Below, piece by piece: positions 42,288 through 62,647 of a stretch of 64,000 nt of DNA. Below the pieces are notes generated by a model. That model ran no database searches. It was given only the letters and a program-made list of their open reading frames with translations, and was not told the DNA's origin. The translations under genes and the position numbers were made by a program. Every line of letters starts with the position of its first letter. The stretch's first letter is position 1. Source of the DNA: Phytoactinopolyspora halotolerans (GTDB lineage: Bacteria > Actinomycetota > Actinomycetes > Jiangellales > Jiangellaceae); assembly GCF_010550675.1 (NCBI RefSeq), contig NZ_JAAGOA010000034.1, positions 1 to 64,000 of the forward strand, in the 5' to 3' direction.

Positions 42288-42335
42288 CCACTTTCCTCAC
42301 GTGACACGCATGAAACAGACGCAGCGTACGGTTCT

Positions 42336-42352
42336 TGTTGATCAGATCAACA
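42336..42352. promoter_or_regulatory. Perfect palindrome TGTTGAT-CAG-ATCAACA
   Basis: Seven-base arms with a 3-base centre, 24 bases upstream of the cupin gene ATG. The symmetry is like GntR- or LacI-type operators. No gene for such a regulator lies nearby. Confidence 0.5.
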
Positions 42353-42375
42353 TCACCCTGAAGGGAAGCACCACG

Positions 42376-42834: not shown

Positions 42835-43968
42835 ATGAGAACACTGCAGCCGCTCTCCGACACTCTCGCCGACGCGATGTCCGGCTATCTGCCGGCACAG
42901 CCGGGCACGGTGCTCTGGGGCGAGCTCCCGTGCGCCACTGACCGCCCAGTCGTGACGATCGACGACGGCGAGTCGCTGACCATCGACACCATCAGCCACG
43001 AGGGGATCCTCGAGGACCAAGAGCGAGACCCGATCGCCTATTTCACCGGTCTCGGAATCGAGAAGGACAGCGTTCTCGACGACGCCGTCCAGGTGGCGGC
43101 CGAGGTCCCACACGATCCGGCGATCCATGGCCCCCACGTGGTGACCGGCCCTATAGCGGTCCGCGGCGCTCGGCCAGGCGATGTCCTCGCGATGACGGTG
43201 GAGGACCTGACGCTGCGCTGCGGGTACGGCATCGTCTCCAACCGGCACCGGCGCGGTGCGTTGCCGGACGAGTTCCCGCTCGGCGGATCGACCGAGACGG
43301 TGTCGGTCCTCTGCACGGTCGACGAGGAGCACGAGGGCGCGATGCCCATGGGCTCGATGCCAGCGGCACCCTGCTCGACGGCGCGGGTCCGGTTTCCGCT
43401 GCGGCCTTTCCTCGGGATCATGGGCGTGGCCGTCGCCGACCGTCGTCGCGCGCATTCCGTACCGCCCGGGCCGCACGGCGGCAACCTCGATGTCTCGCTG
43501 CTCGGCACCGGCGCCACGCTGTATCTTCCGGTGCAGACTGACGGCGCGCTGGCTTACGTCGGCGATCCGCACTATGCGCAGGGCGACGGGGAGGTCGCAC
43601 TGACCGCGTTCGAAGCGCCATTGCGGGCACGTGTCCGATTCGACGTCATCCGCGGCGCCGCCGGCTCCGTATCCGCGCGCCCGCGGCTGTGGGCCGAAAC
43701 CGACGAGCTGTTCATTCCTATAGGCCTGCATAAGGATCTGGACGAAGCGATGCGCAGTTGTGTGCGTTCGGCCGTCGAGTACCTCACGGCGGTAGGCATG
43801 CACCCAGCCCACGCCTACGCGTACCTGTCCGCCGCCGGAGACTTCGCCGTCTCGCAGGTAGTGGACGGCGTCAAGGGCATCCATGGCAAGATCCGCAAGC
43901 CCGATCTCATGCACCTCTCGACGGACCTGGACCGTTTCCGGCACACGCGACAGTCGCGGCCGTCCTGA
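42835..43968 (+). CDS. Acetamidase/formamidase family protein
   Basis: 377 residues of the FmdA_AmdA family, which hydrolyses short amides to acid and ammonia with a metal. Conserved blocks are FTGLGIEKDS, HGPHVVTGPIAVRGARPGDV, and GPHGGNLDVSLLGTGATLYL, PVQTDGALAYVGDPHYAQGD. The length and motif order are as in acetamidases. The real substrate is open. It follows the cupin gene closely. Confidence 0.9.
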   Translation: MRTLQPLSDTLADAMSGYLPAQPGTVLWGELPCATDRPVVTIDDGESLTIDTISHEGILEDQERDPIAYFTGLGIEKDSVLDDAVQVAAEVPHDPAIHGPHVVTGPIAVRGARPGDVLAMTVEDLTLRCGYGIVSNRHRRGALPDEFPLGGSTETVSVLCTVDEEHEGAMPMGSMPAAPCSTARVRFPLRPFLGIMGVAVADRRRAHSVPPGPHGGNLDVSLLGTGATLYLPVQTDGALAYVGDPHYAQGDGEVALTAFEAPLRARVRFDVIRGAAGSVSARPRLWAETDELFIPIGLHKDLDEAMRSCVRSAVEYLTAVGMHPAHAYAYLSAAGDFAVSQVVDGVKGIHGKIRKPDLMHLSTDLDRFRHTRQSRPS

Positions 43969-44734: not shown

Positions 44735-44743
44735 GAGAACACG

Positions 44744-47077: not shown

Positions 47078-47090
47078 GGATATACGCTAC

Positions 47091-47124: not shown

Positions 47125-47301
47125 TAGCTACGATTCCATGTCACGCCTCACCACGCTACTGCTCCACACTCGACACTCGGCAACAACGCGCTCGTCGTCG
47201 ACGGTCACTCACCGCACCTACACCGTGAAGCCGTAACCGGCGGCGTCTCCGCGAGCACCGAACCGATCACCCGTTCACCGCAGGCGGCCCGGTATGATGT
47301 G

Positions 47302-47338
47302 GCCTGATCGCGATGATGTAGCACAGCAGCGATCAGGC
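47302..47338. terminator. Hairpin at the end of the racemase gene
   Basis: GCCTGATCGC (47302-47311) pairs perfectly with GCGATCAGGC (47329-47338) across a 17-base loop. It overlaps the stop of the racemase gene and ends the DUF1611-racemase transcription unit. Confidence 0.65.
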
Positions 47339-48442
47339 AGATGCGTCGAGCGGGTGCGCGGGCTCCCGGACGCGGGGTAGGGCGCTTCGCTCGGCCTTGG
47401 TGACGAACGGCGATGTCATGGCCCGAACGAGGGCGCTGTAGTCGAGCCGGAAAGTGAGTTCGTCGCCGACCGACACGCCGTGGTCGCCCACGTCGACGAC
47501 GAGGTGGTCACTGCTCATACCCAGCGCGACGATGCCCGGCGGCGGGGTGATGCCGTCGGGGTCCACGTCTTGGCGGCCAACGGCGAGGATCGCCTGGCGG
47601 ACGGTACCGGTGTCCCTCCGGGGCGGCTGGACGCCGTACGCGGCCTGGGCGATCTCACCCCACGGTTGCGCCGGTTTGGCCTTGGTCTCGATCACCTCGG
47701 CGACAAGGGTGAACGCGTCGGTACGAAGGCCGTCGATCGGGCGTCTGTGCAGCGGTTCGGTGCCGAGCAAGATCGACTCGCCGAGACGCAGCTCGTCGAT
47801 GCGGCCGACGTCGTCGGTGGTCAAAGCCCAGTTCAGGTTCGCGGAGTTGCCGCCCGACACCACGGACAGCTTATGACCGGGCGTCCTTTCCACCTGCTCG
47901 GCGAGACGGGACAGTTCGTCCATCTTGCGCTTGTCGGGTACGACGCCACATTGGCAGGCCAGGTTCGTGCCGAGCCCGGCGAGCCTCAAGCCCGGCCGCC
48001 TCCCCACGGTACGGGCAAGATCAACGATGTCGGCGGCGGCCACGCCCTCGCGGAGGTCCCCCAGCTCGACCATCACGACCACCGCATGGGTGGTGTGCTG
48101 ACGGATAGCGGCGGCGGAGAGCGCGTCGAGCACGACCGCCTCGGTGTTGAGGCTGACGTCGGCGCTGCGCACGACCAGATCGACCTGGCTCAGCATCGGA
48201 GATCGGATCAGGGTGAGTGGGACGGCGATGCCCGAAGACCGCAGCCGCGCCAGATTCTCCACCCGGGAGTCCCCCAGACTGGTCACGCCACCGCGCAGCA
48301 TGGCCGCCGCCACGCCGGGAGAACCGAGGGTCGCCTTGGACACGCCCGTCACTCGGATACCTTTCGGCCTCAGGCGGTCAACCAGGGTGCTGGTGTTGTG
48401 GGTGATCGCGACCAGGTCGATCTCCAGGCGTGGTGCGGTCAC
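47333..48442 (-). CDS. PLP-dependent amino-acid racemase (alanine/ornithine racemase family)
   Basis: 369 residues. The N-terminal barrel begins LEIDLVAITHNTSTLVDRLR, with the PLP lysine expected in VTGVSKATLGSPGVAAAMLR near 36. Then VVVMVELGDLREGVAAADIV and GLGTNLACQCGVVPD; the C-terminal beta domain follows IVALGMSSDHLVVDVGDHG. This is the YhfX/ornithine-racemase-like branch rather than biosynthetic alanine racemase. It overlaps the DUF1611 stop by four bases, so both proteins are probably made together and act on one substrate. Confidence 0.9.
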   Translation of the reverse strand: MTAPRLEIDLVAITHNTSTLVDRLRPKGIRVTGVSKATLGSPGVAAAMLRGGVTSLGDSRVENLARLRSSGIAVPLTLIRSPMLSQVDLVVRSADVSLNTEAVVLDALSAAAIRQHTTHAVVVMVELGDLREGVAAADIVDLARTVGRRPGLRLAGLGTNLACQCGVVPDKRKMDELSRLAEQVERTPGHKLSVVSGGNSANLNWALTTDDVGRIDELRLGESILLGTEPLHRRPIDGLRTDAFTLVAEVIETKAKPAQPWGEIAQAAYGVQPPRRDTGTVRQAILAVGRQDVDPDGITPPPGIVALGMSSDHLVVDVGDHGVSVGDELTFRLDYSALVRAMTSPFVTKAERSALPRVREPAHPLDASA

Positions 48443-49599
48443 CGTCCGCTCGGGACGAGCGACGCCTCGAGTTCGGGGAAGGCGAGCAGCACCATGTCGA
48501 CCAGCCCTCCGAGCGGGCGGGTCAGCGGATCGGTGGCGGGCACACCGATCTCCAGCTCGTGCTCGTCGATTGCGGCGTCGATCTCGTCGTCGGACATGAA
48601 CTCGTGGTTGATGGTGATGCCGATGACCTTGGTGTCGGCGAACGCCTCGATCAGCGCTACCTCACTGGCGGCGGTCGGCATGGGCACCATCGGGAAGTCG
48701 CCCAGCGTCTTGCGCTTAGGTGCATGCTGCACGACGACGCCGGCGGGCCGGCTCCCCCGCAGGATGTGCGCCGAGGTCAAATAGGCGGGATGGCTGAGAG
48801 CCCCCTGGCCCTCGACCACGATCACGTCCGGATCCTCGCCCTCGAAGGCCGCGACGACCTGGGCCTCTACCTCGCCCGAGCAGAACTGCGGGACGAGCGC
48901 GTCGAGCGCCACACCGTACTTCCCGCCCTGGATCAGCGTCGTCTGGCCGGTGCCGACCATGACGGCGTTGATGCCTTGGGCGTTGAGTGCCCGAGTGAGC
49001 AGCGTGGCCGTGGTGCGTTTGCCGATGGAGCCGTCGGTGCCCAGCACCGCGATGCGCGGACAGGTCACGTCGAAGATCCGGCCGGAGAACAGGTGGAGGT
49101 CCTTCTTCTCCTTGGGCCGACGGATGTCGGTGATCGTCACGCCGGCGAGGATCCGCGCTGCGACGAACTCGGCGTCGTCGTTCAGGAACTCGTGCAGCCC
49201 ATTGATGATGTGCATTCCCCTGGCTATGCCGTCCAGCAGCACCACCCGCTGGGCCGCCGACAACAGACCGTCCGCCGGAGCCACCCCGCAGATGAGGTAA
49301 TCGGGAACGTACCCGGCATGGGCGACAGCCTCGGTCAAGGTCGCCAGCACGGGGATACCGTTGGCGGCGCCGTCGAGGAACATGCCCGCGTCGACGCCGG
49401 CCTGCCGGCTGTCGATCACGCTGAGGACCTGGTACTTCTCGGAGTGACGGACGAGGCCGTTGGCCGTCTTGCCGTCCTGTTCACCGAACTGGCCCTCACA
49501 GTAGACGACTGCCGAGCTGCCGAGCGGCAACGACGGTGTGACACTGCCGGGCTCGGGGCGCACGCCGGCGGAGGCAGGATTGGTCGACAGCGGGGGCAT
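48439..49599 (-). CDS. DUF1611 protein (DgcN-like)
   Basis: 386 residues. An N-terminal Rossmann-like part (LPLGSSAVVYCEGQFGEQDG) is followed by a P-loop-like domain: IAVLGTDGSIGKRTTATLLT near 195, then VIVVEGQGALSHPAYLTSAH. DgcN, a member characterised in D-glutamate breakdown, N-acetylates D-glutamate. The usual partner there is an enolase-type epimerase (DgcA), whereas here it is a PLP racemase. An acyl-transfer or ligation step on an amino acid is likely, but its identity is open. Confidence 0.85.
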   Translation of the reverse strand: MPPLSTNPASAGVRPEPGSVTPSLPLGSSAVVYCEGQFGEQDGKTANGLVRHSEKYQVLSVIDSRQAGVDAGMFLDGAANGIPVLATLTEAVAHAGYVPDYLICGVAPADGLLSAAQRVVLLDGIARGMHIINGLHEFLNDDAEFVAARILAGVTITDIRRPKEKKDLHLFSGRIFDVTCPRIAVLGTDGSIGKRTTATLLTRALNAQGINAVMVGTGQTTLIQGGKYGVALDALVPQFCSGEVEAQVVAAFEGEDPDVIVVEGQGALSHPAYLTSAHILRGSRPAGVVVQHAPKRKTLGDFPMVPMPTAASEVALIEAFADTKVIGITINHEFMSDDEIDAAIDEHELEIGVPATDPLTRPLGGLVDMVLLAFPELEASLVPSGR

Positions 49600-49688
49600 G
49601 AATCTCCTCTGAGTAGGCCCAGAGGAGGCGACGGGATCGTGGCGGAGCCAGGCGTGGCCCAGCGGTCAACGAGGCGTCTTCCCTGAGT

Positions 49689-49706
49689 GTCGGCAATGTT
49701 GCCGAC
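49689..49706. promoter_or_regulatory. Perfect palindrome GTCGGCAA-TG-TTGCCGAC
   Basis: Eight-base arms around TG, 90 bases upstream of the DUF1611 start and between it and the creatininase gene. GTCGGCA half-sites recur at about 49717 and 49742. It is a likely operator giving the DUF1611-racemase pair its own control. Nothing else is recognisable in 49600-49817. Confidence 0.6.
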
Positions 49707-49817
49707 TCTTGAAGATTACCAGGGGTCGGCAGAGACCCCCGTCGGCATAGCCGAGCGATGCCGCCGCCCGATCGAATCCGCCATGTACAAATCGGTCACT
49801 GTGAGATGTCAGGTCTT

Positions 49818-50600
49818 TCACGGTCGCACCTCGAACCGGGATGCCTCGTCGATCGCCGCCATCATCGCCTGGACCGCCCCTTCGAAGAGCGACTTGCCGG
49901 ATTCGGCATTCGCTCCGGTGGGGTCGCCGATGTGACCGGCCGGGCCGAAGTCGTCCGAGAGCCAGCCGAAACTCACCGGCTTGCCGAAGCCGATCATCGA
50001 GTACTCGGTCAACGCCTCCGGCACCGCCCGTTCGGCGAGGTCCATCCGTACCAGGTCAGGCCGCAGGTGCAGCATCAGCGAGGTCTCCTTGAACCCGCCG
50101 TGGATGCCGAACCCCAGCTCGTTCGGATCGGCCACATCCATACCCCCGTGGTCCAGCGGCATCATGGAGTGCGCGAGGAACGTCTTCAGGCCGAACTCGC
50201 GCCGCAATTGCCGGCATGCGACCTGCCCGAGTGCGGAATTGCCGCCGTGCCCGTTGACGAACAGCAGGCGCTCGATCGGCGTCGCCGCGAGCGAACGGCC
50301 GATGTCGACCAGCGTGCGCATCAACGTGTCCCACGACAGCCAGATGGTCCCCGGCGCCCAATGGTGCTCGTCCGACTTGGTGTATGCCAGCCCCGGCATC
50401 AGCACCACGTCGGCGCGTCCCGCATCGGCGACGCCAGTGACGGCCGCCTCGGCCACCGACGTCGCGATCGTGTAGTCGGTGGACAGCGGCAGGTGCGGGC
50501 CGTGCTGTTCCACCGCGCCCAGCGGGAGCACCGCCACGGTGTCCGGCGTTAACGCCTGCACCTCTCGGAACGTCAAGTCGATCAGATTGAACCGCGACAC
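49818..50600 (-). CDS. Creatininase-family amidohydrolase
   Basis: 260 residues with the metal-binding features of creatininases: VLPLGAVEQHGPHLPLSTDY (Glu, His, Asp) near 26-42, SDEHHWAPGTIWLSWDTLMR, and FVNGHGGNSALG near 114, plus Glu in GGFKETSLML. The family opens lactam or amide rings or trims peptides (creatininase, MftE, formamidopyrimidine deformylase). The substrate is probably that of the surrounding catabolic cluster. Confidence 0.9.
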   Translation of the reverse strand: MSRFNLIDLTFREVQALTPDTVAVLPLGAVEQHGPHLPLSTDYTIATSVAEAAVTGVADAGRADVVLMPGLAYTKSDEHHWAPGTIWLSWDTLMRTLVDIGRSLAATPIERLLFVNGHGGNSALGQVACRQLRREFGLKTFLAHSMMPLDHGGMDVADPNELGFGIHGGFKETSLMLHLRPDLVRMDLAERAVPEALTEYSMIGFGKPVSFGWLSDDFGPAGHIGDPTGANAESGKSLFEGAVQAMMAAIDEASRFEVRP

Positions 50601-50623
50601 AGCTCGCGCCTCCTCTCACACGC

Positions 50624-50678
50624 CCATGATCATGAACAGAAACCGTTCAAATAGCACGGATAGTGTTCATGATCATGG
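50624..50678. repeat. Nested palindrome, copy B (15-base perfect arms)
   Basis: CCATGATCATGAACA (50624-50638) pairs with TGTTCATGATCATGG (50664-50678). Inside lies CCGT-N9-ACGG (50643-50659), the same inner repeat and spacing as in copy A at 3455-3509. The stop codon of the FAD oxidase (50675-50673) is inside the right arm. It lies 23 bases before the creatininase gene start. Confidence 0.8.
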
Positions 50679-52004
50679 AGAGCGGTGGAGTTTGCCGGGG
50701 TTGAGCAGGCCCTTGGGATCGGTCCGCGGCACGGTCGCCAGGATCTGCTCGACGTGCCGGTCCACATTCCACTGGTGCGGCGAGTGGATGTCGATGCCGA
50801 TCTCATTCAACCGGGCGAACCCGGCCAGCACCTGCGCCTCGCTCTCGTAGTCGGCCGCGAGCATGCCGAACGGTCCACGATTGGGCCCCAGCTCCAGGTG
50901 GATCATCGAGTTCGGATACACCGATTTGACCGCGTCCGGGTCGTCCCACAACGGGCGCCCGTTGACCTCCAGGTGGAAGCACGGGTGCCCGGCCCGCTGG
51001 CGGAAGTAGATGGGGTGGTTGTACGACATGCCGCTGAGCCGGTCGGTCTGCTCGTATCCCTCCAGCACGCCCACCACCTCGCCGCCCGCCTCCGCGACCC
51101 ACCGCGAGACGGTTTCCACCATGGACGGCTCGAGGATGATCCGCAGGCTCGTCCGCCCGGGATCCAGCTCGATCGGCGCCGGCAGGCTCGGTACCAGGGG
51201 CGGCTCATCCGCCGACGCCAGCCGCGGCAGGATGGGCAGCTCCGGCAGCCGCCGGTGGACCTCGACGGCCTGCTCATAGGCCGGGAACGACGCGTAGAAC
51301 GCCAGCCACTCGCGCGCCGGATCGGTCCGCACCACCACCTCGGTCACGATCCCGGAGACACCGTAGGCGTGCGTGTACGCCACCGTGTCCGGCCCGCCGA
51401 CCCAGAAGTCGGTCCCGCTGCCGTCGCACGGCGCAACCCGCAACTCCCGGATCCAACCGTCGGCGACGGTGCCGTGCTTGATGGTCCCGGTGCCCGCACT
51501 CCCGCCCGCGATGAACCCGCCGATGGACGAGTTCTTCGTGGACGGGAACATCCAGATGTCGTGCCCGGCCTCCCGCACTCGCCGGTCGACCGCGGTCAAC
51601 CGGGCACCTGCCTCGGCCCGCACGAACCCGCCCCCGATCTCGACGACGCGGTCCAGCCGGCGCAGATCCAGCAGTAACCCGCCGGCGAACGGGGTGGCCT
51701 GGCCGTAGTTGCCGGTGCCGGCGCCGCGCGGGGTCACCGGCACGTCGTGCTCGTAGGCCAGCCGCAGGATCCGCGGGACGTCATCGACGCTCGCGGGCCG
51801 GACCACCAGGTCTGCCATGAACCGGCCGGGAGGCAACTTCTCCATCAGGATGGGCGACAACCGCGACCAGTCCGAGGAGAGCTTGCGGATGACCTTCGGG
51901 TCGGTGGAGATCACCTCCGTGCCCAGCTCTTCCGCGAGCCGCTCGCGGAACTCCGCCACGCGGTCCTGCACCGCCGTACGGTCGTTGATGCTCGTGATCG
52001 TCAT
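50673..52004 (-). CDS. FAD-linked oxidase (PCMH/VAO type)
   Basis: 443 residues. The FAD-binding PCMH domain is at about 55-235: VRPASVDDVPRILRLAYEHD, VTPRGAGTGNYGQATPFAGG, GFVRAEAGARLTAVDRRVRE, SSIGGFIAGGSAGTGTIKHG. The C-terminus ends TDPKGLLNPGKLHRSP as in glycolate/D-lactate-dehydrogenase-like oxidases. It starts 3 bases after the binding-protein stop, so it belongs to the ABC-transporter operon. Oxidation of a 2-hydroxy acid or amine intermediate is a reasonable guess. Confidence 0.9.
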   Translation of the reverse strand: MTITSINDRTAVQDRVAEFRERLAEELGTEVISTDPKVIRKLSSDWSRLSPILMEKLPPGRFMADLVVRPASVDDVPRILRLAYEHDVPVTPRGAGTGNYGQATPFAGGLLLDLRRLDRVVEIGGGFVRAEAGARLTAVDRRVREAGHDIWMFPSTKNSSIGGFIAGGSAGTGTIKHGTVADGWIRELRVAPCDGSGTDFWVGGPDTVAYTHAYGVSGIVTEVVVRTDPAREWLAFYASFPAYEQAVEVHRRLPELPILPRLASADEPPLVPSLPAPIELDPGRTSLRIILEPSMVETVSRWVAEAGGEVVGVLEGYEQTDRLSGMSYNHPIYFRQRAGHPCFHLEVNGRPLWDDPDAVKSVYPNSMIHLELGPNRGPFGMLAADYESEAQVLAGFARLNEIGIDIHSPHQWNVDRHVEQILATVPRTDPKGLLNPGKLHRSP

Positions 52005-52007
52005 ACC

Positions 52008-53198
52008 TCAGTCCAGACTGATCGACTCGTCCAGGAACTCGTTGGTCACGAGATCCTCCGGGACGAGGTCCGGTTTGATATCGGCGGTGTCCAGGATCGG
52101 CGCGAACGTGTCGATGATCTGCTGGACACGTTCCAGATCGAACGCGCCCAGGACTCCGGTCTCCGGGTCGTTCGCCACGATGCCGTGTTCGAGCATCGCG
52201 TCGACCGCGAACTCGGCGACCCCGGGCGTGTACTCCCAGCCGGTGTTGTACTCCCCGACCAGCTCGACGATCAGCTCGTTGGTCTCGGCCGGATCGTCGA
52301 TGTAGTCGATCTGCGACTGCTGCAGGATCGGCACGAGCTTCTCCAGGCAGTCCCGTTCCTCTTCGATGTCTGCCGTGCGCACCGCGTAGGGCTCGGGATA
52401 GATCGTGAAGCCGACCTCGTACAGCAGCTGCGCGGCGATCGGTCTGCCCCAGTTGCTGACCTCGTGTTCGTAGATGTACGGCTCCGCGCTGATGAAGCCC
52501 TGCTGCAAAATGCTCGGGTCGCCGACGAACCTGGCCGGCGTTCCTTCATAGCCGGTGTCCATCTGCGACTCGTCGATGATCCCCTGCGACAGCAGCAACT
52601 TCTGGATGGTGTCGCCGGCGGTCACCACCGTCGCGCCCTCAGCCGCGACGTCCACCAGGGATTCGGCGTCGGGATAGGTCTCCGGGTCCCACATCAGGAT
52701 CTGTGGGCTGATGTTGAGCGGAGCGACGACGGCGGTCACCGGCTGCTCGCCCGACGAGGAGATCGCGTAGTCGGTGTTGACCGCACCGATCAGGATGTCC
52801 TCGTCCAAGTACATCAGCGCCGCCACCGGCTGGAATCCCACCGTCGAACCACCGGGCCGGACCTCCACCGACACCCCGGTGTCCACGTCGCCCACAACCA
52901 GCGGGCCGGTGACGGTCTTGGCGTCGGCATCGATCTGGTAGCCGGGACCGACCAGGTGGTACATCGCACCATGCTCGGCCTCGGGCTGCCAGTCCTGTTG
53001 CATCACGATGGGGTCCGGGCAGACGCCCGCGAGATCGTGTTCGGATCCGGCCTCGGCCGGGGTGAGCTCGTCGCCGGCCGGCGTGGTCTCGCCTTCCGAC
53101 GCCGACGCGGTTTCGTCGCCGTCGTCGCCACCGCAGGCGGCGACGAACAGGGCGATCGCGAGCGAACCCGCGACGGCGAAGGCACCTCTGGGTCTCAT
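52008..53198 (-). CDS. ABC-transporter substrate-binding lipoprotein (NMT1/SsuA-like)
   Basis: 396 residues. A signal peptide with lipobox (AIALFVAACGGDDGD, Cys near 22) is followed by an acidic linker and the binding domain: VMQQDWQPEAEHGAMYHLVG, TVGFQPVAALMYLDEDI, ILMWDPETYPDAESLVD. The general pattern is that of nitrate/sulfonate/pyrimidine-precursor binding proteins. It is larger than usual (about 330). It is the importer's receptor and, with the catabolic neighbours, implies uptake of a small N-containing solute. Confidence 0.88.
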   Translation of the reverse strand: MRPRGAFAVAGSLAIALFVAACGGDDGDETASASEGETTPAGDELTPAEAGSEHDLAGVCPDPIVMQQDWQPEAEHGAMYHLVGPGYQIDADAKTVTGPLVVGDVDTGVSVEVRPGGSTVGFQPVAALMYLDEDILIGAVNTDYAISSSGEQPVTAVVAPLNISPQILMWDPETYPDAESLVDVAAEGATVVTAGDTIQKLLLSQGIIDESQMDTGYEGTPARFVGDPSILQQGFISAEPYIYEHEVSNWGRPIAAQLLYEVGFTIYPEPYAVRTADIEEERDCLEKLVPILQQSQIDYIDDPAETNELIVELVGEYNTGWEYTPGVAEFAVDAMLEHGIVANDPETGVLGAFDLERVQQIIDTFAPILDTADIKPDLVPEDLVTNEFLDESISLD

Positions 53199-53323
53199 CT
53201 AGGTCTCCTTAAAGTGGTGCGTGACGCGCTAACCAGGCACGACGGCGGAACCGCCGAGCTCGTGTGGACGGATGTGCGCTGTTCTGAGGTCAGTGCTGGA
53301 GTGGCCCGGCGACCGTGCGGTCG

Positions 53324-54214
53324 CTACCGGCGGACCATCCCGTACCAATGGCCGACGACGGCCCGGTCGAGCGTGGCGAACAGCGAGAAGACGACGACGC
53401 CGAAGAGCGACGCCAGCCCGATCGCGGTGAACAGGTCCTCGGTCTGCAACCGTTGCGTGTAGACGTCCAGCAGGCCGCCGATGCCGACCGGCCCCTGACG
53501 GAAGAAGTAGTCGCCGACGATGGCGCCGATCACGGAGAGCCCGGCAGAGATCCGCAACCCGCTGAAGATCGACGGAACGGCGGCCGGAAGCTGCAGCTTG
53601 GTGAGCCGCTGCCACCTGCTCGCCTTCTTCAGCGTGAACAGGTCGTGTGCGGCCGCGCTCGGCGATTGCAGCCCGAACAGGGTGTTGGAGATCATCGGGA
53701 AGAGGGCGATGAGCACGCATACGACGACGCGGCTGCCGAACCCGTAACCGAGCCAGATGCCGAGCAACGGAACCAGCGCCAGGATCGGCATGGTCTGCAG
53801 GATCACCGCGTACGGGTAGAGGATCCGCTCCATCCACCGGGACTGCACCATGACGATCGCCTGCGTCACTCCGAGCGCCACGGCGATCACCAAGCCGAGC
53901 ACGGCGACCTGTACGGTGAGCCACAGGGCCTGCAGCATCGGTGTCATGTGCGACGACTGCAGTACCGAGACCTCGAGCACCTGATGCACCGGCGGCAGCA
54001 TGAACCGCCGGTTCTCCGCGAGCACCAGGTACGTCACCGCATACCAGACACCGACGGCCACGGCGAGCGCGCTGAGCATCGGGCCCACCGCCGCGGCGAC
54101 GCGCCCCACGGTGCGGCGTGCGGCGCCATGCGCGGCCTGCTCTGGCGACTGGGTCTCCGCCGACTCTCCGGTGGCGGGTGGGCGAGAGCCGGCGGAGGTC
54201 ATTGCGGCGGTCAT
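53324..54214 (-). CDS. ABC-transporter permease (SsuC/TauC-like)
   Basis: 296 residues. About six membrane helices with the EAA-like loop in FTLKKASRWQRLTKLQLPAA and PSIFSGLRISAGLSVIGAIV. The ATG at 54214 overlaps the ATP-binding gene stop (ATGA). The 125-base gap to the binding-protein gene holds a small hairpin (GGCGGAACCGCC) near 53244 but no gene. Confidence 0.92.
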   Translation of the reverse strand: MTAAMTSAGSRPPATGESAETQSPEQAAHGAARRTVGRVAAAVGPMLSALAVAVGVWYAVTYLVLAENRRFMLPPVHQVLEVSVLQSSHMTPMLQALWLTVQVAVLGLVIAVALGVTQAIVMVQSRWMERILYPYAVILQTMPILALVPLLGIWLGYGFGSRVVVCVLIALFPMISNTLFGLQSPSAAAHDLFTLKKASRWQRLTKLQLPAAVPSIFSGLRISAGLSVIGAIVGDYFFRQGPVGIGGLLDVYTQRLQTEDLFTAIGLASLFGVVVFSLFATLDRAVVGHWYGMVRR

Positions 54215-54999
54215 TCGTGTCCGCCTTCCAGCGCCGCCGACACCTGGCCGGTGAGTGCAGCGAACTCCGCCTGATAGCGCAGCTCGGGCGGCCGCGGATA
54301 CTGCCACGGGATCGCGATGTCCGCCACGATCCGGCCGGGCCGGCCGGACATCACCAGCACCCGGTTGCTCAGGTAGACCGCCTCGGAGACCGAGTGCGTG
54401 ATGAACAGCCCGGCGAACTGTTTCAACCGGAAGATGCGCTGCAGTTCGGTCTGCATCCGCAGCCGGGTGATCTCATCCAGCGCGCCGAACGGCTCGTCGA
54501 ACAGCGCGAGGTCGGGCTCCGCCACCAGGGATCGGGCCAGCGACACCCGCATCCGCATCCCGCCGGAGAGCTGGCGCGGGAACTGCCGCTCGAAGCCGGT
54601 CAAGCCCACCAGCTCGAGCGCCTCGGTGGCCCGTCGTCTCCGCTCTGCCCTCGGTACGCCACGCAATTCGTCGATCAGCTCCACGTTCTTCTGCGCCGAG
54701 CGCCACTCCAGCAGCGTCGGCTCCTGGAAGACGAAGCTGGTGGCGGCCGCGTTGACCTGGATCGTGCCGCCACTGACGGCGTCCAGTCCGGACGCGAGCC
54801 GGAGCAACGTGGACTTGCCGCAGCCGGACGGCCCGACGACGGACACCAGATCGCCCGCCGCCACCTCCAGGCTCACGTCGGTCAAGGCGACCGTGCCCGT
54901 CGAGAAGGTCTTGCAGACGCCGCGCATCAGCAGGGTGCTGGGGCGGGCAGCCAGGATGTCGGCCGTGGGTGCGTGCAGCGTCGCAGCGTCAACGGACAT
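54211..54999 (-). CDS. ABC-transporter ATP-binding protein (SsuB/TauB-like)
   Basis: 262 residues. Walker A VGPSGCGKSTLL near 57, Q-loop FVFQEPTLLEWRSA, signature LSGGMRMRVSLARSL, Walker B DLALFDEPFGALDE, His in FITHSVSEAV. It would drive the importer formed with the permease at 53324 and the binding protein at 52008. ATG 54999 is eight bases after GGAGG; the GTG at 55008 overlaps that site. It overlaps the amidohydrolase stop. Confidence 0.95.
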   Translation of the reverse strand: MSVDAATLHAPTADILAARPSTLLMRGVCKTFSTGTVALTDVSLEVAAGDLVSVVGPSGCGKSTLLRLASGLDAVSGGTIQVNAAATSFVFQEPTLLEWRSAQKNVELIDELRGVPRAERRRRATEALELVGLTGFERQFPRQLSGGMRMRVSLARSLVAEPDLALFDEPFGALDEITRLRMQTELQRIFRLKQFAGLFITHSVSEAVYLSNRVLVMSGRPGRIVADIAIPWQYPRPPELRYQAEFAALTGQVSAALEGGHE

Positions 55000-56464
55000 G
55001 GCGTTCACCTCCGGACTCGGAGTACATGGGAACTGTCCCGACGGTGGGACCGGTGCTGTCGATGACGGTCGGTTCGGCGGTGTTCGGCGCCGTCCCGGTC
55101 AGGTCGATGGACCGGGCCATCCGGCTATCGGCGACGATCCGACCGGCGTGGACGACGACACGTGCGTCCACTTGGCCGGCCAGGACGTCCCCGAGGTCGG
55201 TGTCCGGTACCAGGATCAGGTCGGCTGCGCACCCGGCGTCGATGCCGACGGGTGGCAGCCCCAGCACGGTCCGGGCTCCTGTCGTCACCGCGGCAAGCGC
55301 CTCGGCCGGTGTGAGATGACCGGCGGTGACCAGCAGTGACGTCGTCTCGAACGGGTCGGCGCGCCCTACCGGGTTGAACGGATCGCGCAGGTTGTCACCG
55401 CCGGCGGCCAGCGGAATGCCCAGGTCCAGGATCGCGCGCAACGCCGGCAGTCCACGTGGTGCCGGCTGCGGAGCGTCGCGACCCTGCAGGTACAGGTTGG
55501 TGATGGGCAGGGTGACGATGCCCAGGCCGGCCCGGCGGACGAGCTCGAGCACCGCCGCGAGCCGTTCGGGCGGCAGGGAACCCAGCCGGACGCAGTGGCT
55601 GGCGACCACCCGGTGCGCGAACCCGCGAGCCAGCACCTGCTCAGCCAGCTCGGCGATGTCGACGTCATGTGCGCCCTCGCCGAGGCTCACCTGCTCGTCG
55701 GTGTGCAGGTCGACGTCGAGCCCGTGCCGCTCGGCCAGATCTGCCAACCGTGCGGTCTCGACCCGCGGATCCGGCGCGAGGTGCGGGCACCCGCCGAGCA
55801 GGTCGACGCCGCGCTCGATCGCCTCCTCGACGACGGGCGTCGGCGTGTCCGACGCCACCAGGGCCACCACCTGGAGCGTGACCCGGCCGCGCAGCTCATC
55901 TCGTAGCCGGGTCAACGCGTCCACCCCGCGCATCGCGTCGCCGGCGGCCGGGACGTCGACGTGCGTGCGGATGGTGGTGATTCCGTGCGTCACGTACCGC
56001 CGGACGGCGTCCGACGCTCGCTGGTAGATGTCCGCGCGATCGATCGAGGCGTACAGCTCGCGCCACTGGGAGATCGCACTCTCCAGGTCGTTCTGCCGCA
56101 GGTCGACCCGAGGCGCGCTGAGCGCCTTGTCCAGATGGGCGTGCGGCTCGGCGGCGGCCGGCAGGATGCGCCAGCCGTGCGCATCGATCTCGGCACCCAG
56201 GGGTCGCGGCCCCTCGTGCACATGTGTGCCGCCCGCTGCTGCGCCGTCCGCCGGAGGTGGCGCGGACGCGGCCGTCACCGCGGAGATCCGGTCCCGATCG
56301 AGGTACACGTCAACGACGGACCCGTCCGGAGCACGCACACCGCGCAGCGCCCGGAGGACGATGCCGGCCGTGCCTGGGGCGTCGTCGGAGCGACCGAGGA
56401 TCGTCGCCGTGCGGGGTCGGTTCGGAGTCGAGGTGTGCGTGGTCCTGATGTCAGCCGAGGTCAT
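54989..56464 (-). CDS. Cytosine-deaminase-like amidohydrolase
   Basis: 491 residues of the metal-dependent amidohydrolase superfamily, CodA branch. Ligand and catalytic positions are EPHAHLDKAL near 109, DVDLHTDEQVS near 257, VVASHCVRLG near 291 and AAGGDNLRDPFNP near 357. The first metal motif is His-x-His within AHAH-like HAHLDK, as in cytosine deaminases. It would hydrolyse an amidine or cyclic amide nitrogen. An N-terminal stretch of about 30 residues is unstructured. It is the second gene of the cluster transcript. Confidence 0.9.
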   Translation of the reverse strand: MTSADIRTTHTSTPNRPRTATILGRSDDAPGTAGIVLRALRGVRAPDGSVVDVYLDRDRISAVTAASAPPPADGAAAGGTHVHEGPRPLGAEIDAHGWRILPAAAEPHAHLDKALSAPRVDLRQNDLESAISQWRELYASIDRADIYQRASDAVRRYVTHGITTIRTHVDVPAAGDAMRGVDALTRLRDELRGRVTLQVVALVASDTPTPVVEEAIERGVDLLGGCPHLAPDPRVETARLADLAERHGLDVDLHTDEQVSLGEGAHDVDIAELAEQVLARGFAHRVVASHCVRLGSLPPERLAAVLELVRRAGLGIVTLPITNLYLQGRDAPQPAPRGLPALRAILDLGIPLAAGGDNLRDPFNPVGRADPFETTSLLVTAGHLTPAEALAAVTTGARTVLGLPPVGIDAGCAADLILVPDTDLGDVLAGQVDARVVVHAGRIVADSRMARSIDLTGTAPNTAEPTVIDSTGPTVGTVPMYSESGGERHVR

Positions 56465-57450
56465 GTACGCCTCCGCCGCTCGTGTGCACCGCGGCGGCCA
56501 CCCGCCTGAGCTTCCACGGGGGTCAGGATCACGACCCCGTCGACGTCGTGGCGCAGCGCCGGCCCGCCGAGCAGATCGGCGCCCGGTGTCGGCATCGACT
56601 CGCCGTCGAGCACGACCCGCGCCGCGGCGGCCACCGCACGGATCTGGTCACCGGGAAGCTCGGCCAGCAGGTTGTGCGCCGTCAGCACCCGGCGCACAGG
56701 CAGCGTGGCCAGGCGTCGCGTGCTCGCCGCGAAAGCGCCGAGGTCCGCGCCGTCCCCATGCAGCCAGTGCGCCGCGGCCAGCACCGTATCGCCGGACAGC
56801 AGAGACCCGGTGGCGGGTTCGAAGAGGCACAGACCGTCGGGGGCGTGGCCCGGTGTGTGCAGGACCGTCAGTACCCGGCCGCCGAGATCGACCGGCTCGC
56901 CGTCGGCCAATGCCCGAGACGGTGCCAGCGCCGGGATGCCCCACGCGGTCAGATCGGGCATCGGACGCATCCGCGGCAGCCGCCCGCAGGCGAAGAAGCG
57001 CTGCGAGTCGAGCGCCAGATAGGCGAGGTAATCGGTGTAGACGGTGCGCATGGCCGCGTCATACGCGGAGAGGAAACTCTGCGGCGCCGCCAGGTGGCCG
57101 CGCCGGAGGCCAAGCGGGTGGCACGCGATGTCGATCAGTCCCAGCTCCTCCTGCCGCTGGAACAGGTCGCTGTTGCCGCCGCGGTGATCGATGTGGTCAT
57201 GCGAGTTGATCACCAGCAGCGGCCGGTCGGTCAGCCGTCTCACCACGTCGGAGATCGGCGCGATCCCCATCCCGGTGTCGAAGAGCAGCGCCGCGTCGTC
57301 GCCGATGATCAGGAAGCAGTTCACGTGACCGGGCTCGGCGATCAGGTAGATGTCGTCGCCGAGATCGCGCACCTCGAACCAGTCGCCGGCGGCCACGTAC
57401 TGGTTGGGAGCCCAGGGCACGGTGGCCGCACCGCGGGTCTGCATCACCAT
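56461..57450 (-). CDS. Metallo-beta-lactamase-fold hydrolase
   Basis: 329 residues. Metal motif NSHDHIDHRGG (H-x-H-x-D-H variant) near 83-93, later HTPGHAPDGLCLFEPATGSL and LLSGDTVLAAAHW, and AHNLLAELPGD with a final His. It is of the glyoxalase II-like or lactonase-like kind. ATG 57450 is five bases after GGGAGG. It is the first gene of the minus-strand cluster, and overlaps the amidohydrolase start by four bases. Confidence 0.9.
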   Translation of the reverse strand: MVMQTRGAATVPWAPNQYVAAGDWFEVRDLGDDIYLIAEPGHVNCFLIIGDDAALLFDTGMGIAPISDVVRRLTDRPLLVINSHDHIDHRGGNSDLFQRQEELGLIDIACHPLGLRRGHLAAPQSFLSAYDAAMRTVYTDYLAYLALDSQRFFACGRLPRMRPMPDLTAWGIPALAPSRALADGEPVDLGGRVLTVLHTPGHAPDGLCLFEPATGSLLSGDTVLAAAHWLHGDGADLGAFAASTRRLATLPVRRVLTAHNLLAELPGDQIRAVAAAARVVLDGESMPTPGADLLGGPALRHDVDGVVILTPVEAQAGGRRGAHERRRRT

Positions 57451-57531
57451 CCGTGCCTCCCTCGTATGCACCGGAGCGGTCGTGTGCCTGGATCTCCTGT
57501 TCCTACTCCCACCAACCGTGGAACCACCGAT

Positions 57532-57550
57532 ATGTTGATGTGAGTAACAT
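57532..57550. promoter_or_regulatory. Operator ATGTT-N9-AACAT, copy 1
   Basis: ATGTTGATGTGAGTAACAT lies between the divergent MBL and XRE-cupin genes. It also contains GATGT-GAGTA-ACATC (57537-57551). On the minus strand it sits between TTGCAG and ATATCG, a -35/-10-like pair with 17-base spacing. The same element occurs at 61318-61336 in front of the amidase operon. Confidence 0.65.
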
Positions 57551-57635
57551 CTGCAATGTACGCAAGCCCGCGTTTCCGGCGCGTAACCGCGACGGCTCCA
57601 CCGTGTGAAGACTCCTCCCGGCCCAGAGAGGACCG

Positions 57636-58256
57636 ATGACCGAACCGCAACGCGAGATCGACAAGCAGCTGGGAGCGGCGATCCGTGCCCTGCGCCACGA
57701 GCGCGGCCTGACCCTGGTCAAGCTCGCGCGGGCCACCGAGTTGTCGCACCCGTTTCTCAGCCAGATCGAGCGTGGACGGGCACGCCCGTCGATGCGTTCG
57801 CTGTTCCTGATCGCCGAGGCGCTGGGCACCACCCAGCAGGAGCTGCTCGCCACCGCGTCGCCGAACACATCCCGCGATCTGCAGCCGCAGCGCGGAGACC
57901 AGGCGGCGACCGTCGACCTGACCCGCGGCGGAGCTCGCCTGCTGTTGCACGACGAGCACGTCGACCTCACCGAATTCGTCGACGTCTGGACGGACTGGGA
58001 GGAGTACTTCGTCCATTCGCGGCACGAGTTCCTCTACGTCACGGCGGGGACGCTGGAGGTGGAGATCCGCGAGCACGGCGCTGACGAGAGCACCTTCGCG
58101 ATACTCAAACCGCGCGACACCATCGGCTATCCGGGCAATACGCTGCACCGCTTCCGCAGCGCGGGGCCAGAGCCCGCGTCGGTCATCGTCGTGCACAGCG
58201 GGCCCGGCACAGCCCACGAAGATCGAGAGGAGGCAGGCGGCACCGCCACACCATGA
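57636..58256 (+). CDS. XRE-family regulator with C-terminal cupin domain
   Basis: 206 residues. HTH at about 12-68 (IRALRHERGLTLVKLARATE, LSHPFLSQIERGRARPSMRS). Cupin at about 110-195 (FVHSRHEFLYVTAGTLEVEI, LKPRDTIGYPGNTLHRFRSA). Such regulators bind a small catabolic substrate in the cupin barrel and control an adjacent catabolic operon. AGAGAGGA precedes the ATG. It faces the seven-gene catabolic run and shares its promoter region. Confidence 0.92.
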   Translation: MTEPQREIDKQLGAAIRALRHERGLTLVKLARATELSHPFLSQIERGRARPSMRSLFLIAEALGTTQQELLATASPNTSRDLQPQRGDQAATVDLTRGGARLLLHDEHVDLTEFVDVWTDWEEYFVHSRHEFLYVTAGTLEVEIREHGADESTFAILKPRDTIGYPGNTLHRFRSAGPEPASVIVVHSGPGTAHEDREEAGGTATP

Positions 58257-58289
58257 CCTTCATGTCTGGAGCGTCGCCGCCGGCACCGC

Positions 58290-58892
58290 ATGACCGACCT
58301 GAGCTTCTCGGACAACCCGCTGCACACCCTCGCGAACTGGGCCGAGCAGGCGGAGAACGCCGGCGAACCCAGCCCGCGGACCATGACCTTCGCGACCGCT
58401 GGAGCCGACGGCATCCCGCACGCTCGCACGGTGCTGACCACCGTGATCGACGACGAGTCCGTCCATTTCCACAGCTCTAGCCCGACGACGAAGACGCTCA
58501 ACCTGGCCGAGAATCCGAGGTGCTCAGGCGTGTTCTACTGGCCCGGCCTGGCCCGCCAGGTGGTGCTGGACGGCACGGCCCGCGAGCTGCCGGACGACGT
58601 GTCCCGGCAGGCGTATCCCACCCGCCCGCCGCAGCTCCAGCTGCTGGCCTGGGTCTATGAAGAGCTCAACGACGACAACCCGATCACCACCGTAGATCCG
58701 GACGAGGTGCAGCGCGCGTTCTATGCCCACGCCCGGCGGGGACCGCTCCAGATGCCGCCGTCGTGGACCACCGTCAGCCTGGCACCGCATCGGATGATCT
58801 TCTGGGTCAGCCACGGCCCCGACGAGCCGCCCACACGCACCTGCTTCGACCTGACCGACGGCAGCTGGCGTCGCCGCCACGTTCTTCCGTAG
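58290..58892 (+). CDS. Pyridoxamine 5'-phosphate oxidase family protein
   Basis: 200 residues. FMN-binding split barrel (MTFATAGADGIPHARTVLTT, VHFHSSSPTTKTLNLAENPR, CSGVFYWPGLARQVVLDGTA) and the PNPOx C-terminal dimer segment ending SWRRRHVLP. A genuine PdxH would oxidise PNP/PMP to PLP; the sequence is shorter and less typical than housekeeping PdxH, so it may be a cluster-specific enzyme. It starts 34 bases after the regulator and is likely co-transcribed with it. Confidence 0.8.
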   Translation: MTDLSFSDNPLHTLANWAEQAENAGEPSPRTMTFATAGADGIPHARTVLTTVIDDESVHFHSSSPTTKTLNLAENPRCSGVFYWPGLARQVVLDGTARELPDDVSRQAYPTRPPQLQLLAWVYEELNDDNPITTVDPDEVQRAFYAHARRGPLQMPPSWTTVSLAPHRMIFWVSHGPDEPPTRTCFDLTDGSWRRRHVLP

Positions 58893-61317: not shown

Positions 61318-61349
61318 ATGTTCACTGTATCAACATCGGCGGCTAGAGT
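61318..61349 (+). promoter_or_regulatory. Operator ATGTT-N9-AACAT, copy 2, on a sigma-70-like promoter
   Basis: ATGTT (61318-61322) and AACAT (61332-61336) repeat the design of 57532-57550. Read on the other strand the two sites also share ATGTTGAT. The site overlaps TTCACT (-35, 61321-61326), with TAGAGT (-10, 61344-61349) 17 bases further on, so a bound protein would block the promoter. The start codon at 61358 would lie near +1. Confidence 0.6.
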
Positions 61350-61357: not shown

Positions 61358-62647
61358 ATGCCCCACAACGATGCCCGGACGCCCGGCCCGCCACCACCTA
61401 TCCATGCGCCCGACGACGGCGACGTGGGGTCGCGTGCCGATCATTCATGGCCCGATGACCGCCGCGTCATCGAGAGCGACCAGGACGGCGCGGTCTGGCG
61501 GGTCAAGCCCTCCGACGCTCCCCTGATACCCGGCCGGCCCGGAGGTCCGCTCAGCGGCCGGCGAGTGGCGGTCAAGGACCTGTTCGCCGTGGCCGGCCAG
61601 CGTATCGGGGCCGGCAATCCGTACTGGCTGACGTCGGCGCCCGTCGAGGACACGCACGCCGCCGCGGTCGCCGCCCTGCTCAACGCCGGAGCGGACGTCG
61701 CCGGGATCGCCCAGACCGACGAGCTGGCGTTCTCGTTGGCCGGGGCCAATCTGCACTACGGAACTCCGCGCAATCCCGCGGCACCGGGCCGGGCCACGGG
61801 CGGCTCGAGCAGCGGCCCGGCGGCCGCCGTCGCCGCCGGCGCGGCGGACATCGGGCTCGGCACCGATACCGGTGGATCGATCCGGGTCCCGTCGTCGTAC
61901 TGCGGGCTGTACGGGCTGCGTCCGACGCACGGCGCCGTCGACCGCACCGGCCTGATTCCGCTCGCACCGTCGTTCGACACGGTCGGGATGATGACCCGAA
62001 CCCCGGCCGATCTGCTCGACGCCGCCGACGTCCTCCTGCCGCCCGCCGGCCCGGGTGGCACCGTGCGCGACTACCTGATCGCGCCGTCGTTGATGGACCT
62101 CGCGACGACGGAGACCAGGCACGCCGTCCACCATGCCGTGCGCGCACTCGCCCGGCGCGCCGATGGCTCCGTGCATCTCATCGACCTGCCGGAGGAGATC
62201 CTTGAGGTCTGGTTCGGCGCGTTCCGCACCGTCCAGACCGCCGAGGCCTGGCGCGAGCACGCGGAATTCGTCGGTGCACATGCCGGGCTGCTGGAACCCG
62301 CGATCGAGGCGCGGTTCCGATCCGGCGCGGCTGTCACCCGGGCCGCCGAGGACGACGCCCGAGCCGTGCTGGCGGACGCTCGCGACCGGCTACACGCGCT
62401 CCTCGTCCCCGGCGCCGTTCTGGCGCTGCCGGCCACGTCCAGTCCCGCGCCCCCGGTCGGCGCGGACGCTGCCATGATCGATGCGATCCGGGCCGCCACG
62501 CTCCGGCTGACCTGCCTTGCCGGCGCGGGCGGTCTGCCGGCGCTGACCATACCGACGGCACAAGCGAATGGTCTGCCCGTCGGTCTGTGCCTGGTGGCCG
62601 GCTCGGACGCGGACCGCTCGCTGCTGTCCTTGCTGGAGGTGCCGTGA
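61358..62647 (+). CDS. Amidase-signature family amidase
   Basis: 429 residues. The Ser-cisSer-Lys triad is visible: Lys in GRRVAVKDLFAVAG near 73, cis-Ser in TGGSSSGPAAAVAAG near 149, and Ser in LGTDTGGSIRVPSSYCGLYG near 172. The size and the LAGANLHYGTPRNP segment suit AtzF/GatA-related amidases hydrolysing small amides. Its stop overlaps the next start (GTGA). The start has no ribosome site, fitting a leaderless message. Confidence 0.92.
   Translation: MPHNDARTPGPPPPIHAPDDGDVGSRADHSWPDDRRVIESDQDGAVWRVKPSDAPLIPGRPGGPLSGRRVAVKDLFAVAGQRIGAGNPYWLTSAPVEDTHAAAVAALLNAGADVAGIAQTDELAFSLAGANLHYGTPRNPAAPGRATGGSSSGPAAAVAAGAADIGLGTDTGGSIRVPSSYCGLYGLRPTHGAVDRTGLIPLAPSFDTVGMMTRTPADLLDAADVLLPPAGPGGTVRDYLIAPSLMDLATTETRHAVHHAVRALARRADGSVHLIDLPEEILEVWFGAFRTVQTAEAWREHAEFVGAHAGLLEPAIEARFRSGAAVTRAAEDDARAVLADARDRLHALLVPGAVLALPATSSPAPPVGADAAMIDAIRAATLRLTCLAGAGGLPALTIPTAQANGLPVGLCLVAGSDADRSLLSLLEVP

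Follow-up and report, generated by a model that had tools for sequence, protein, structure and literature searches.

A putative XRE-cupin-controlled nitrogen-scavenging regulon with a conserved six-gene core in Phytoactinopolyspora halotolerans

The window analysed here, a stretch of 64,000 nucleotides from Phytoactinopolyspora halotolerans (contig NZ_JAAGOA010000034.1, positions 1 to 64,000; genome size 7.3 Mb), carries a six-gene core made up of a CodA-like amidohydrolase, the ATPase, permease and substrate-binding protein of an ATP-binding cassette (ABC) importer, a flavin adenine dinucleotide (FAD)-binding oxidoreductase and a creatininase-family protein, together with an XRE-cupin regulator and three operator-like palindromes. 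As a whole, these features are best explained, with about an even chance of being right, as an XRE-cupin-controlled nitrogen-scavenging regulon which would import and dismantle an oxidised purine or a ureide; within this explanation we infer the order of the steps, the binding of the palindrome by the XRE-cupin protein, induction and the substrate class, while the gene content, the conserved core, the operator with its three sites, the fold of the binding protein and the removal of two genes from the unit (DUF1611 and a racemase) rest on computation. The boundaries of the regulon, as defined here, are very probably correct. An earlier note, made from the letters of this DNA, had offered a list of ten adjacent genes; in its place stands a unit which is marked by an operator, whose genes in this genome can be listed exactly, and which has relatives in Proteobacteria as well as in many families of actinobacteria.

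The gene order was compared over 111 loci that carry the binding-protein gene. Of these, 31 came from class genomes (stretches of our own selection among the binding-protein matches) and 80 were the best of 192 relatives from named genomes; the two sets overlap, L049 being the same as L089 and L056 the same as L162, judged by contig. Among those best 80 of 192 the closest match of the window was that of Phytoactinopolyspora endophytica. Genes in the loci were called with a simple codon-score script, family presence was judged by self-chosen bit thresholds, and a core was recorded where at least five of the six genes were found, the binding protein, the FAD oxidoreductase and the creatininase-family protein being obligatory. 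Counted over 113 loci, namely the 111 and two DUF1611 loci left in the set, the core was present in 64 (51 from named genomes) belonging to several actinobacterial families, commonly in the order amidohydrolase, ATPase, permease, binding protein, FAD enzyme, creatininase-family gene; the set thus recurs across actinomycetes beyond chance. The gene order had not been recognised in the earlier note, and literature searches in open-licence papers likewise gave no description of the gene set. Work on nitrogen limitation in M. smegmatis mentions uricase, formamidases and a gene of the creatininase subfamily, each on its own (PMC4617892).

The CodA-like amidohydrolase accompanied 47 and the XRE-cupin gene 46 of the 51 named-genome core loci, an 8-oxoguanine-deaminase-like gene 36 and a PNPOx-like gene 32; less frequent were ferredoxin reductase (20), a second amidohydrolase (14), flavin reductase (8), cupin, metallo-beta-lactamase (MBL)-fold hydrolase and isochorismatase (7 each), and AmdA-like protein and amidase (5 each). 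Two forms can be told apart: type I, represented by the window, in which the core stands with MBL, amidase and isochorismatase genes, and type II, in which it stands with the 8-oxoguanine-deaminase-like gene. The latter gene and at least two of the three type I genes were never found together in a core locus (40 versus 9 of 64; Fisher p 4.7e-5, all Fisher tests given here being uncontrolled for relatedness). Since the regulator, the operator, the importer and the core are common to both forms, these may represent two downstream tool sets for one substrate class.

A search for palindromes in 54 regions upstream of XRE genes revealed the operator: ATGTT-N9-AACAT occurred in 27 of them, whereas in none of ten shuffles did the most frequent palindrome occur in more than three. 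In loci amounting to about 2.05 Mb, the fuller form, ATGTTGA-N5-TCAACAT, matched at 59 sites when two mismatches were allowed (27 of them exact, 12 with one mismatch and 20 with two) and at 39 when one was allowed, as against at most 4 and 0, respectively, for 200 permuted palindromes. The sites were counted on the same loci that served for discovery; those of the window ahead of the cupin-AmdA and amidase genes were not in the discovery set. Thirty of the 59 sites lay by an XRE gene and 23 by an amidohydrolase gene, the others by flavin reductase, MBL, cupin, ATPase, luciferase-type, amidase or isochorismatase genes. The palindrome was present in 29/51 named-genome core loci versus 4/49 non-core loci, two of these four being truncated cores. 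A site was carried by 11 of 12 type I loci, 22 of 40 type II loci and 3 of 12 other core loci. From its position, the XRE-cupin protein is presumed to be the binder of the palindrome.

In the window three sites were found at up to two mismatches (57532, 42335 and 61318), whereas a fourth at 44699 needs three; the only sites with one mismatch in the host genome are those at 42335 and 61318. On the basis of the three sites the regulon is composed of [MBL to creatininase], [XRE-PNPOx], [cupin-AmdA] and [amidase-isochorismatase] (Table 1). The site ATGTTGATGTGAGTAACAT lies 60 bp from the MBL start and 85 bp from the XRE start, and TTGTTGATCAGATCAACAT has a counterpart at the same place in P. endophytica, 24 bp ahead of the cupin gene. 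The cupin start adopted in Table 1 was deduced from the operator position and a relative, a longer frame beginning at 42310. All ten genes claimed in the earlier note were found as open frames with the expected families in a Pfam and NCBIfam profile search, and the start/stop overlaps it had mentioned occur at four joints (racemase/DUF1611, 4 nt; permease/ATPase, 4 nt; ATPase/amidohydrolase, 20 nt; amidohydrolase/MBL, 4 nt). The range of 47333-58256 which it gave for the cluster does not hold, since the true unit runs past both ends, to the cupin-AmdA genes on one side and to the PNPOx-like, amidase and isochorismatase genes on the other. The remaining minus-strand gaps measure 3, 72, 125 and 218 nt, and the gaps and overlaps, with the largest gap exactly between the creatininase-family and DUF1611 genes, suggest a two-part layout. 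When 47000-58400 was scanned for promoters and terminators, a single terminator-like site and no promoter-like one came up, counts that are at the chance level.

Table 1. Genes and operator-like sites of the window
Feature	Position	Strand	Family match or remark
Operator-like palindrome TTGTTGATCAGATCAACAT	42335..42353	.	1 mismatch; 22 bp ahead of cupin ATG 42376, upstream of cupin-AmdA
Cupin, single-domain	42376..42819	+	Cupin_2 match (scanned from 42310); family members also adjoin core elsewhere
Acetamidase/formamidase family protein (AmdA-like)	42835..43968	+	FmdA_AmdA
Orr-like pyridoxal phosphate (PLP) racemase, judged outside unit	47333..48442	-	Ala_racemase_N
DUF1611 protein, judged outside unit	48439..49599	-	DUF1611_N + DUF1611
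Creatininase-family amidohydrolase, core gene	49818..50600	-	PF02633, 229 bits
FAD-binding oxidoreductase, core gene	50673..52004	-	FAD_binding_4; full-length relative of PDB 6v42/6v43
ABC substrate-binding protein, core gene	52008..53198	-	ThiY/Thi5 (NMT1) fold, predicted
ABC permease, core gene	53324..54214	-	PF00528
ABC ATPase, core gene	54211..55008	-	PF00005
CodA/AtzC-like amidohydrolase, core gene	54989..56464	-	Amidohydro_3
MBL-fold hydrolase, type I form	56461..57471	-	PF00753 (Lactamase_B)
Operator-like palindrome ATGTTGATGTGAGTAACAT	57532..57550	.	2 mismatches, exact for ATGTT-N9-AACAT; between MBL and XRE-cupin
XRE-cupin regulator, presumed binder of palindrome	57636..58256	+	HTH_31, HTH_3, Cupin_2
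PNPOx-like flavin mononucleotide (FMN) protein	58290..58892	+	PF01243; 33 nt 3' of regulator
Operator-like palindrome ATGTTCACTGTATCAACAT	61318..61336	.	1 mismatch, exact for ATGTT-N9-AACAT; 21 bp ahead of amidase
Amidase-signature hydrolase (PRK08310-like, AtzE-related)	61358..62647	+	PF01425
Isochorismatase-fold hydrolase, RutB/biuret hydrolase relative	62713..63402	+	RutB 106 bits, biuret hydrolase 93.5

Neither Pfam nor NCBIfam gave a match to the binding protein at E 0.001. Its predicted structure (mean pLDDT 92.9) agrees with the label of an NMT1-type importer used in the earlier note, the best structural match being ThiY (3ix1; Z 26.2, root-mean-square deviation 3.5, 292 aligned), followed by the thiamin-binding 4nmy (Z 25.8), Thi5 (4esx; Z 23.3) and CmpA (19.8); 3ix1 was also the best Foldseek match, with E 6e-14. 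By this model the protein has the ThiY/Thi5 (NMT1) fold. W70 is invariant in the alignment, and aromatic and acidic residues are nearly so.

The CodA-like amidohydrolase matches cytosine deaminase 1k6w with 136.8 bits and AtzC entries with 78-91 bits. It keeps the metal ligands and catalytic residues of CodA, H61, H63, H214, E217, H246 and D313; H61, H63, H214 and H246 occur in 68/68 alignment rows and E217 and D313 in 65/68, the rows containing the window protein twice and some duplicate loci. The window protein has A, N and F in place of the CodA substrate residues Q156, D314 and W319, the last two replacements recurring in 68/68 rows, and it was therefore rejected as cytosine deaminase proper. 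The creatininase-family protein keeps the positions E34, H36, D45, H120 and H178, with four of five metal ligands. It lacks E122 (G; NGHGGN versus NGHYEN), W154 and W174 (M/H region, F), a metal ligand and two tryptophans of the Pseudomonas creatininase, and it missed the creatininase equivalog (99.8 of 235 bits) as well as MftE (154.3 of 172), so that creatininase as an exact identity was also rejected. No relatives of this protein were found in viral contigs.

The FAD enzyme has a full-length relative in PDB 6v42 (159.8 bits), the best match among solved structures and a protein 66-68% identical to rhizobial FAD enzymes. Those of the rhizobial enzymes that are encoded on R. etli pC (39-67% class of matches) adjoin codA and creatininase genes; no paper citing the PDB codes 6v42/6v43 was found in the open-licence literature. 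Among the accessory proteins, the amidase scored 390.7 of 391 bits with PRK08310 and 188 of 461 bits with AtzE, the AmdA-like protein missed the FmdA equivalog (70 of 500 bits) and the PNPOx-like protein that of pdxH (95 of 180), while the isochorismatase scored 122.1 of 370 bits as biuret hydrolase BiuH and 121.7 of 378 as RutB. The Rut proteins, BiuH, AtzE, DgcN, Orr, creatininase and cytosine deaminase were all rejected as exact identities in residue or cut-off tests.

The genomic context points first to purines and second to pyrimidines. Genes for urate oxidase, hydroxyisourate hydrolase, OHCU decarboxylase, allantoinase or XdhA occur in 10/51 named-genome core loci versus 0/49 non-core loci (Fisher p 0.0012), a comparison weakened by a control set with many short contigs and two DUF1611 loci among the 49 and by the uncontrolled relatedness. 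Representatives of four of these families exceed the NCBIfam cut-offs (urate oxidase, 335.6 of 168.4; hydroxyisourate hydrolase, 118.6 of 87.45; OHCU decarboxylase, 146.4 of 139.4; allantoinase, 562.6 of 357.85), whereas the XdhA-like one is below it (506.9 of 780). Urate and allantoin catabolic genes of this kind are neighbours of the core in Dietzia and some Microbacteriaceae; they were not found in the window. Urate oxidase was found in 36/41 class genomes with a strong binding-protein match versus 131/352 others, counts confounded by relatedness, and P. endophytica carries both the cluster and urate oxidase. The host genome gave no urate oxidase match and no allantoinase above the cut-off (best 222 of 357.85), and it gave three molybdenum-hydroxylase matches; this is compatible with an alternative route for purines or with a different substrate.

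A second line of evidence comes from 17 stretches of proteobacterial plasmids, for which functions were taken from the PLSDB annotation, the PLSDB gene table being incomplete. All six core functions are annotated in 11 of them (Nitratireductor twice, Rhizobium twice, Alloyangia, Klebsiella, Salipiger, Roseateles, Rahnella, a Comamonadaceae strain and Pseudosulfitobacter); of the other six, Pantoea L177 is without an annotated ATPase only, three are partial, Pantoea L174 has only a creatininase-family gene, with a different transporter, and one is unannotated. The core proteins are 22-57% identical to those of the window, and RidA often adjoins them. In Klebsiella and Rahnella the xanthine riboswitch RF03054 lies beside the core (63.4 and 61.8 bits; gathering 36), one LysR gene standing between the core operon and the riboswitch operon, which holds a binding protein, an amidohydrolase and a 2-oxoglutarate (2OG) oxygenase (L172, L183). 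Proteins encoded next to actinobacterial binding-protein genes share 60-64% identity with the riboswitch-led 2OG oxygenase of Klebsiella; the identity is 30% between the riboswitch-led amidohydrolase and the deaminase-like protein of type II, and 35% between the PDR reductase of the core operon and the type II reductase.

According to Yu and Breaker (2020; PMC7373994), this RNA binds xanthine and urate, and the genes behind it include NMT1/THI5-like and TauA-type genes, dioxygenases (among them hcaE, PDR and DIOX_N) and PRK12393-type amidohydrolases; genes of these types also occur around the actinobacterial loci. The likeness of the proteobacterial xanthine-riboswitch (NMT1 motif RNA) gene sets to the loci described here extends to NMT1-type binding proteins, ABC genes, 8-oxoguanine/guanine-deaminase-like amidohydrolases, PDR-type reductases, and Rieske and 2OG-Fe(II) oxygenases (same source). 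They differ in that the window and the actinobacterial loci would be regulated by the XRE-cupin protein and the palindrome instead of a riboswitch, and in that the FAD oxidoreductase, creatininase-family and CodA-like genes do not lie directly behind the riboswitch; "creatinin-", "cytosine deaminase" and "FAD" are absent as words from PMC7373994. As a separate observation, a guanidine-I and a guanidine-II riboswitch occur in the island of the rhizobial core (R. etli plasmid pC, L171, 26486-29421), near urea amidolyase-type genes.

Taken together, the context gives a purine-type substrate, i.e. a purine that is oxidised or modified in another way, or a ureide derived from purines, roughly as good a chance as all else. 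Several observations weigh against it. The purine-gene neighbours are confined to Herbiconiux, Dietzia, Frigoribacterium, Agreia and Microbacterium, all of them type II and never type I. No palindrome was found by urate oxidase, allantoinase or Xdh genes in the loci examined, and these neighbours therefore need not share regulation with the core; the palindrome itself, at up to two mismatches, is absent from 22/51 named-genome core loci. Over the whole host genome there are 9 sites at up to two mismatches (3 in the window) versus 7 for the reversed pattern, so that only the one-mismatch sites stand out by themselves. The riboswitch link concerns 2/17 proteobacterial loci with a single enterobacterial arrangement, and RF03054 was not found at the gathering score in the window or in the 23 actinobacterial loci scanned. 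It gave 0/296 in class genomes as well, a scan in which no control genome gave a match either. Finally, the nearest solved binding proteins are binders of thiamin or its pyrimidine; a purine-binding NMT1 protein is absent from the Foldseek and VIA-align match lists, an absence which proves nothing.

In the proposed mechanism the ABC importer with its ThiY/Thi5-fold binding protein would bring in a nitrogen-rich heterocycle, which the CodA/AtzC-like metal amidohydrolase could deaminate or open at an amidine or ureide bond. The FAD oxidoreductase would oxidise the product and the creatininase-family metal hydrolase would open a cyclic amide. In the type I tail the MBL hydrolase, amidase, isochorismatase and acetamidase/formamidase may cleave smaller amides to ammonia and one- or two-carbon pieces, the PNPOx-like FMN protein possibly lending redox help. 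The general proposal of the earlier note, import with stepwise hydrolysis and oxidation of a nitrogen-rich compound, fits the core, the binding-protein fold and the regulon, but not with the DUF1611 and racemase genes or the ends it had given; of its substrate guesses, a pyrimidine-like compound stays as the second choice from context, and lactams and hydantoins received no direct support.

It is tempting to speculate that the core represents an aerobic purine breakdown bypassing urate oxidase, with import of an 8-oxo- or otherwise oxidised purine, deamination, FAD oxidation, creatininase-family ring opening and interchangeable tails of types I and II, although we regard this as rather unlikely. 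If true, the type I tail would be that of amidase, isochorismatase and AmdA and the type II tail 8-oxoguanine-deaminase-like or Rieske-type, and the core would be the degradation partner that the xanthine-riboswitch gene sets lack, serving hosts devoid of urate oxidase such as P. halotolerans. The results bear on a question of Yu and Breaker, namely what part is played by the amidohydrolases and dioxygenases that follow the xanthine riboswitch, and why the riboswitch-associated genes showed none for the degradation of oxidised purines (PMC7373994).

The same regulon could serve a pyrimidine, either a thiamin breakdown product (2-methyl-4-aminopyrimidines) or another 4-aminopyrimidine, which we consider fairly unlikely. 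The CodA-like enzyme would then remove the 4-amino group, the FAD enzyme would oxidise the side chain, and ring opening would give acetamide or formamide for the AmdA-like enzyme, whose gene lies inside the regulon. The predicted fold, nearest to N-formyl-aminopyrimidine-binding ThiY and thiamin-binding 4nmy and above Thi5 and CmpA, the CodA type of the amidohydrolase and the RutB-related isochorismatase are in keeping with such a substrate, as are a RutF-related flavin reductase and a luciferase-type monooxygenase in some relatives. However, the changes at Q156, D314 and W319 argue otherwise, no thiamin or other small-molecule riboswitch was found in the window or in 23 actinobacterial loci, the core is adjoined by purine and not by thiamin genes, and the NMT1/THI5-like label is misleading for purine-linked genes, as Yu and Breaker warn (PMC7373994). 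The Rut models were also missed: beyond the RutB-like isochorismatase, and the RutF-like flavin reductase, luciferase-type monooxygenase and RidA of some relatives, the likeness to the Rut pathway ends at 122 of 378 bits for RutB, 73 of 255 for RutF (relative L052) and no RutA match for the luciferase-type protein of L078.

A pathway for a xenobiotic or a triazine/biuret-type nitrogen heterocycle, with natural purines as chance neighbours, is improbable. It would account for the resemblance of the window amidohydrolase to AtzC (83-91 bits), of the type II amidohydrolase to the triazine hydrolase TrzN (210 bits), of the amidase to AtzE and of the isochorismatase to biuret hydrolase, but the AtzE and BiuH equivalog cut-offs were missed, purine genes stand in 10/51 named-genome loci, and a distribution over so many genera suggests that the substrate is an old, natural one. 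Biuret/triuret and gatA-like amidase clusters have been proposed for purine degradation products in nitrifiers; they are similar in their isochorismatase and GatA/AtzE-like amidase, and one genome has a creatininase-like gene close to biuH; they differ in their BmpA-NupABC transport, the FAD oxidoreductase and CodA-like gene not being named in the accessible part of that paper (PMC12625717).

Creatinine, N-methylhydantoin or a related cyclic urea, degraded by creatininase/creatinine deiminase chemistry, is very improbable. The family names speak for it, the isochorismatase fold includes N-carbamoylsarcosine amidase (39 bits), methylenetetrahydrofolate reductase (MTHFR)-like genes near the core in 11/51 named-genome loci could accept one-carbon units, and a hydantoinase B/oxoprolinase gene adjoins the Nitratireductor version; on the other side stand the loss of E122, W154 and W174, the missed equivalog (99.8 of 235 bits) and the finding of a hydantoinase in only one of the loci read.

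The single pathway of the earlier note, which included the DUF1611 and racemase genes and might act on a D-amino acid derivative or lactam, is scarcely credible, since against the adjacency of the pair on the same strand, the 4-nt overlap between its genes and the relation of DUF1611 to the N-acetyltransferase DgcN stand the absence of either gene from all 111 binding-protein loci (0/111 at E 1e-6), the displacement of the pair in two congeners, the 218-nt gap to the creatininase-family gene, the lack of an operator site and, in another genome, an M19 dipeptidase neighbour. The DUF1611 and racemase genes are an unrelated pair sitting inside the locus and are not members of the regulon. DUF1611 matches with E < 1e-160 occurred in 10/393 class genomes, two of them congeners; of the 17 listed, the other seven were weak. 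P. endophytica (G018) carries the pair on contig C27, apart from the binding protein on C3, and in the congener G017 the pair is present and the binding-protein match absent. DNA comparison showed that the window blocks 37934-40495, 42299-43913 and 49818-61713 are collinear with the P. endophytica locus L089, 43914-49817 being unmatched, and that 47379-49722, i.e. the pair with about 120 bp upstream, matches the pair's other positions in L050 and L051 with 81-82%. No palindrome with up to two mismatches lies by either gene in the window.

The two proteins belong to the families of the N-acetyltransferase DgcN and the ornithine racemase Orr, but differ from that system in falling below both NCBIfam cut-offs (150.9 of 480 bits for DgcN; 329.7 of 480 for Orr) and in standing outside the regulon; a PADLOC scan of both gave zero matches. 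In L069 (8550-12015) an M19 membrane dipeptidase directly follows the pair, which hints at D-amino-acid dipeptide turnover. The place between the creatininase-family and AmdA genes appears to be a variable insertion spot: in the window (43914-49817) it holds the DUF1611-racemase, ATPase, MDR and TetR genes, and in P. endophytica (L049, 11612-14499) a HipA-type gene and others instead. The ATPase there (45794-47077, minus strand) is of the AAA_14/DUF4143 kind, scores 251 bits with the PADLOC candidate defence family PDC-S01 and lies inside the stretch absent from P. endophytica.

Some further features of the loci may be recorded. A glutamate/proline context was considered and rejected, pyrroline-5-carboxylate (P5C) dehydrogenase being near the core in just five loci of one family. 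Paralogous binding proteins devoid of FAD and creatininase-family genes occur in L057, L077, L079-L083, L128 and others, and some of them adjoin 2OG oxygenases. Of the MTHFR-like genes (L054, L055, L060 and others), one tested has an N-terminal DUF5981 stretch. L054 also encodes, at 3249-6056, a protein of 935 residues with FMN_dh at 548-934 and about 547 residues ahead of it that match no Pfam family.

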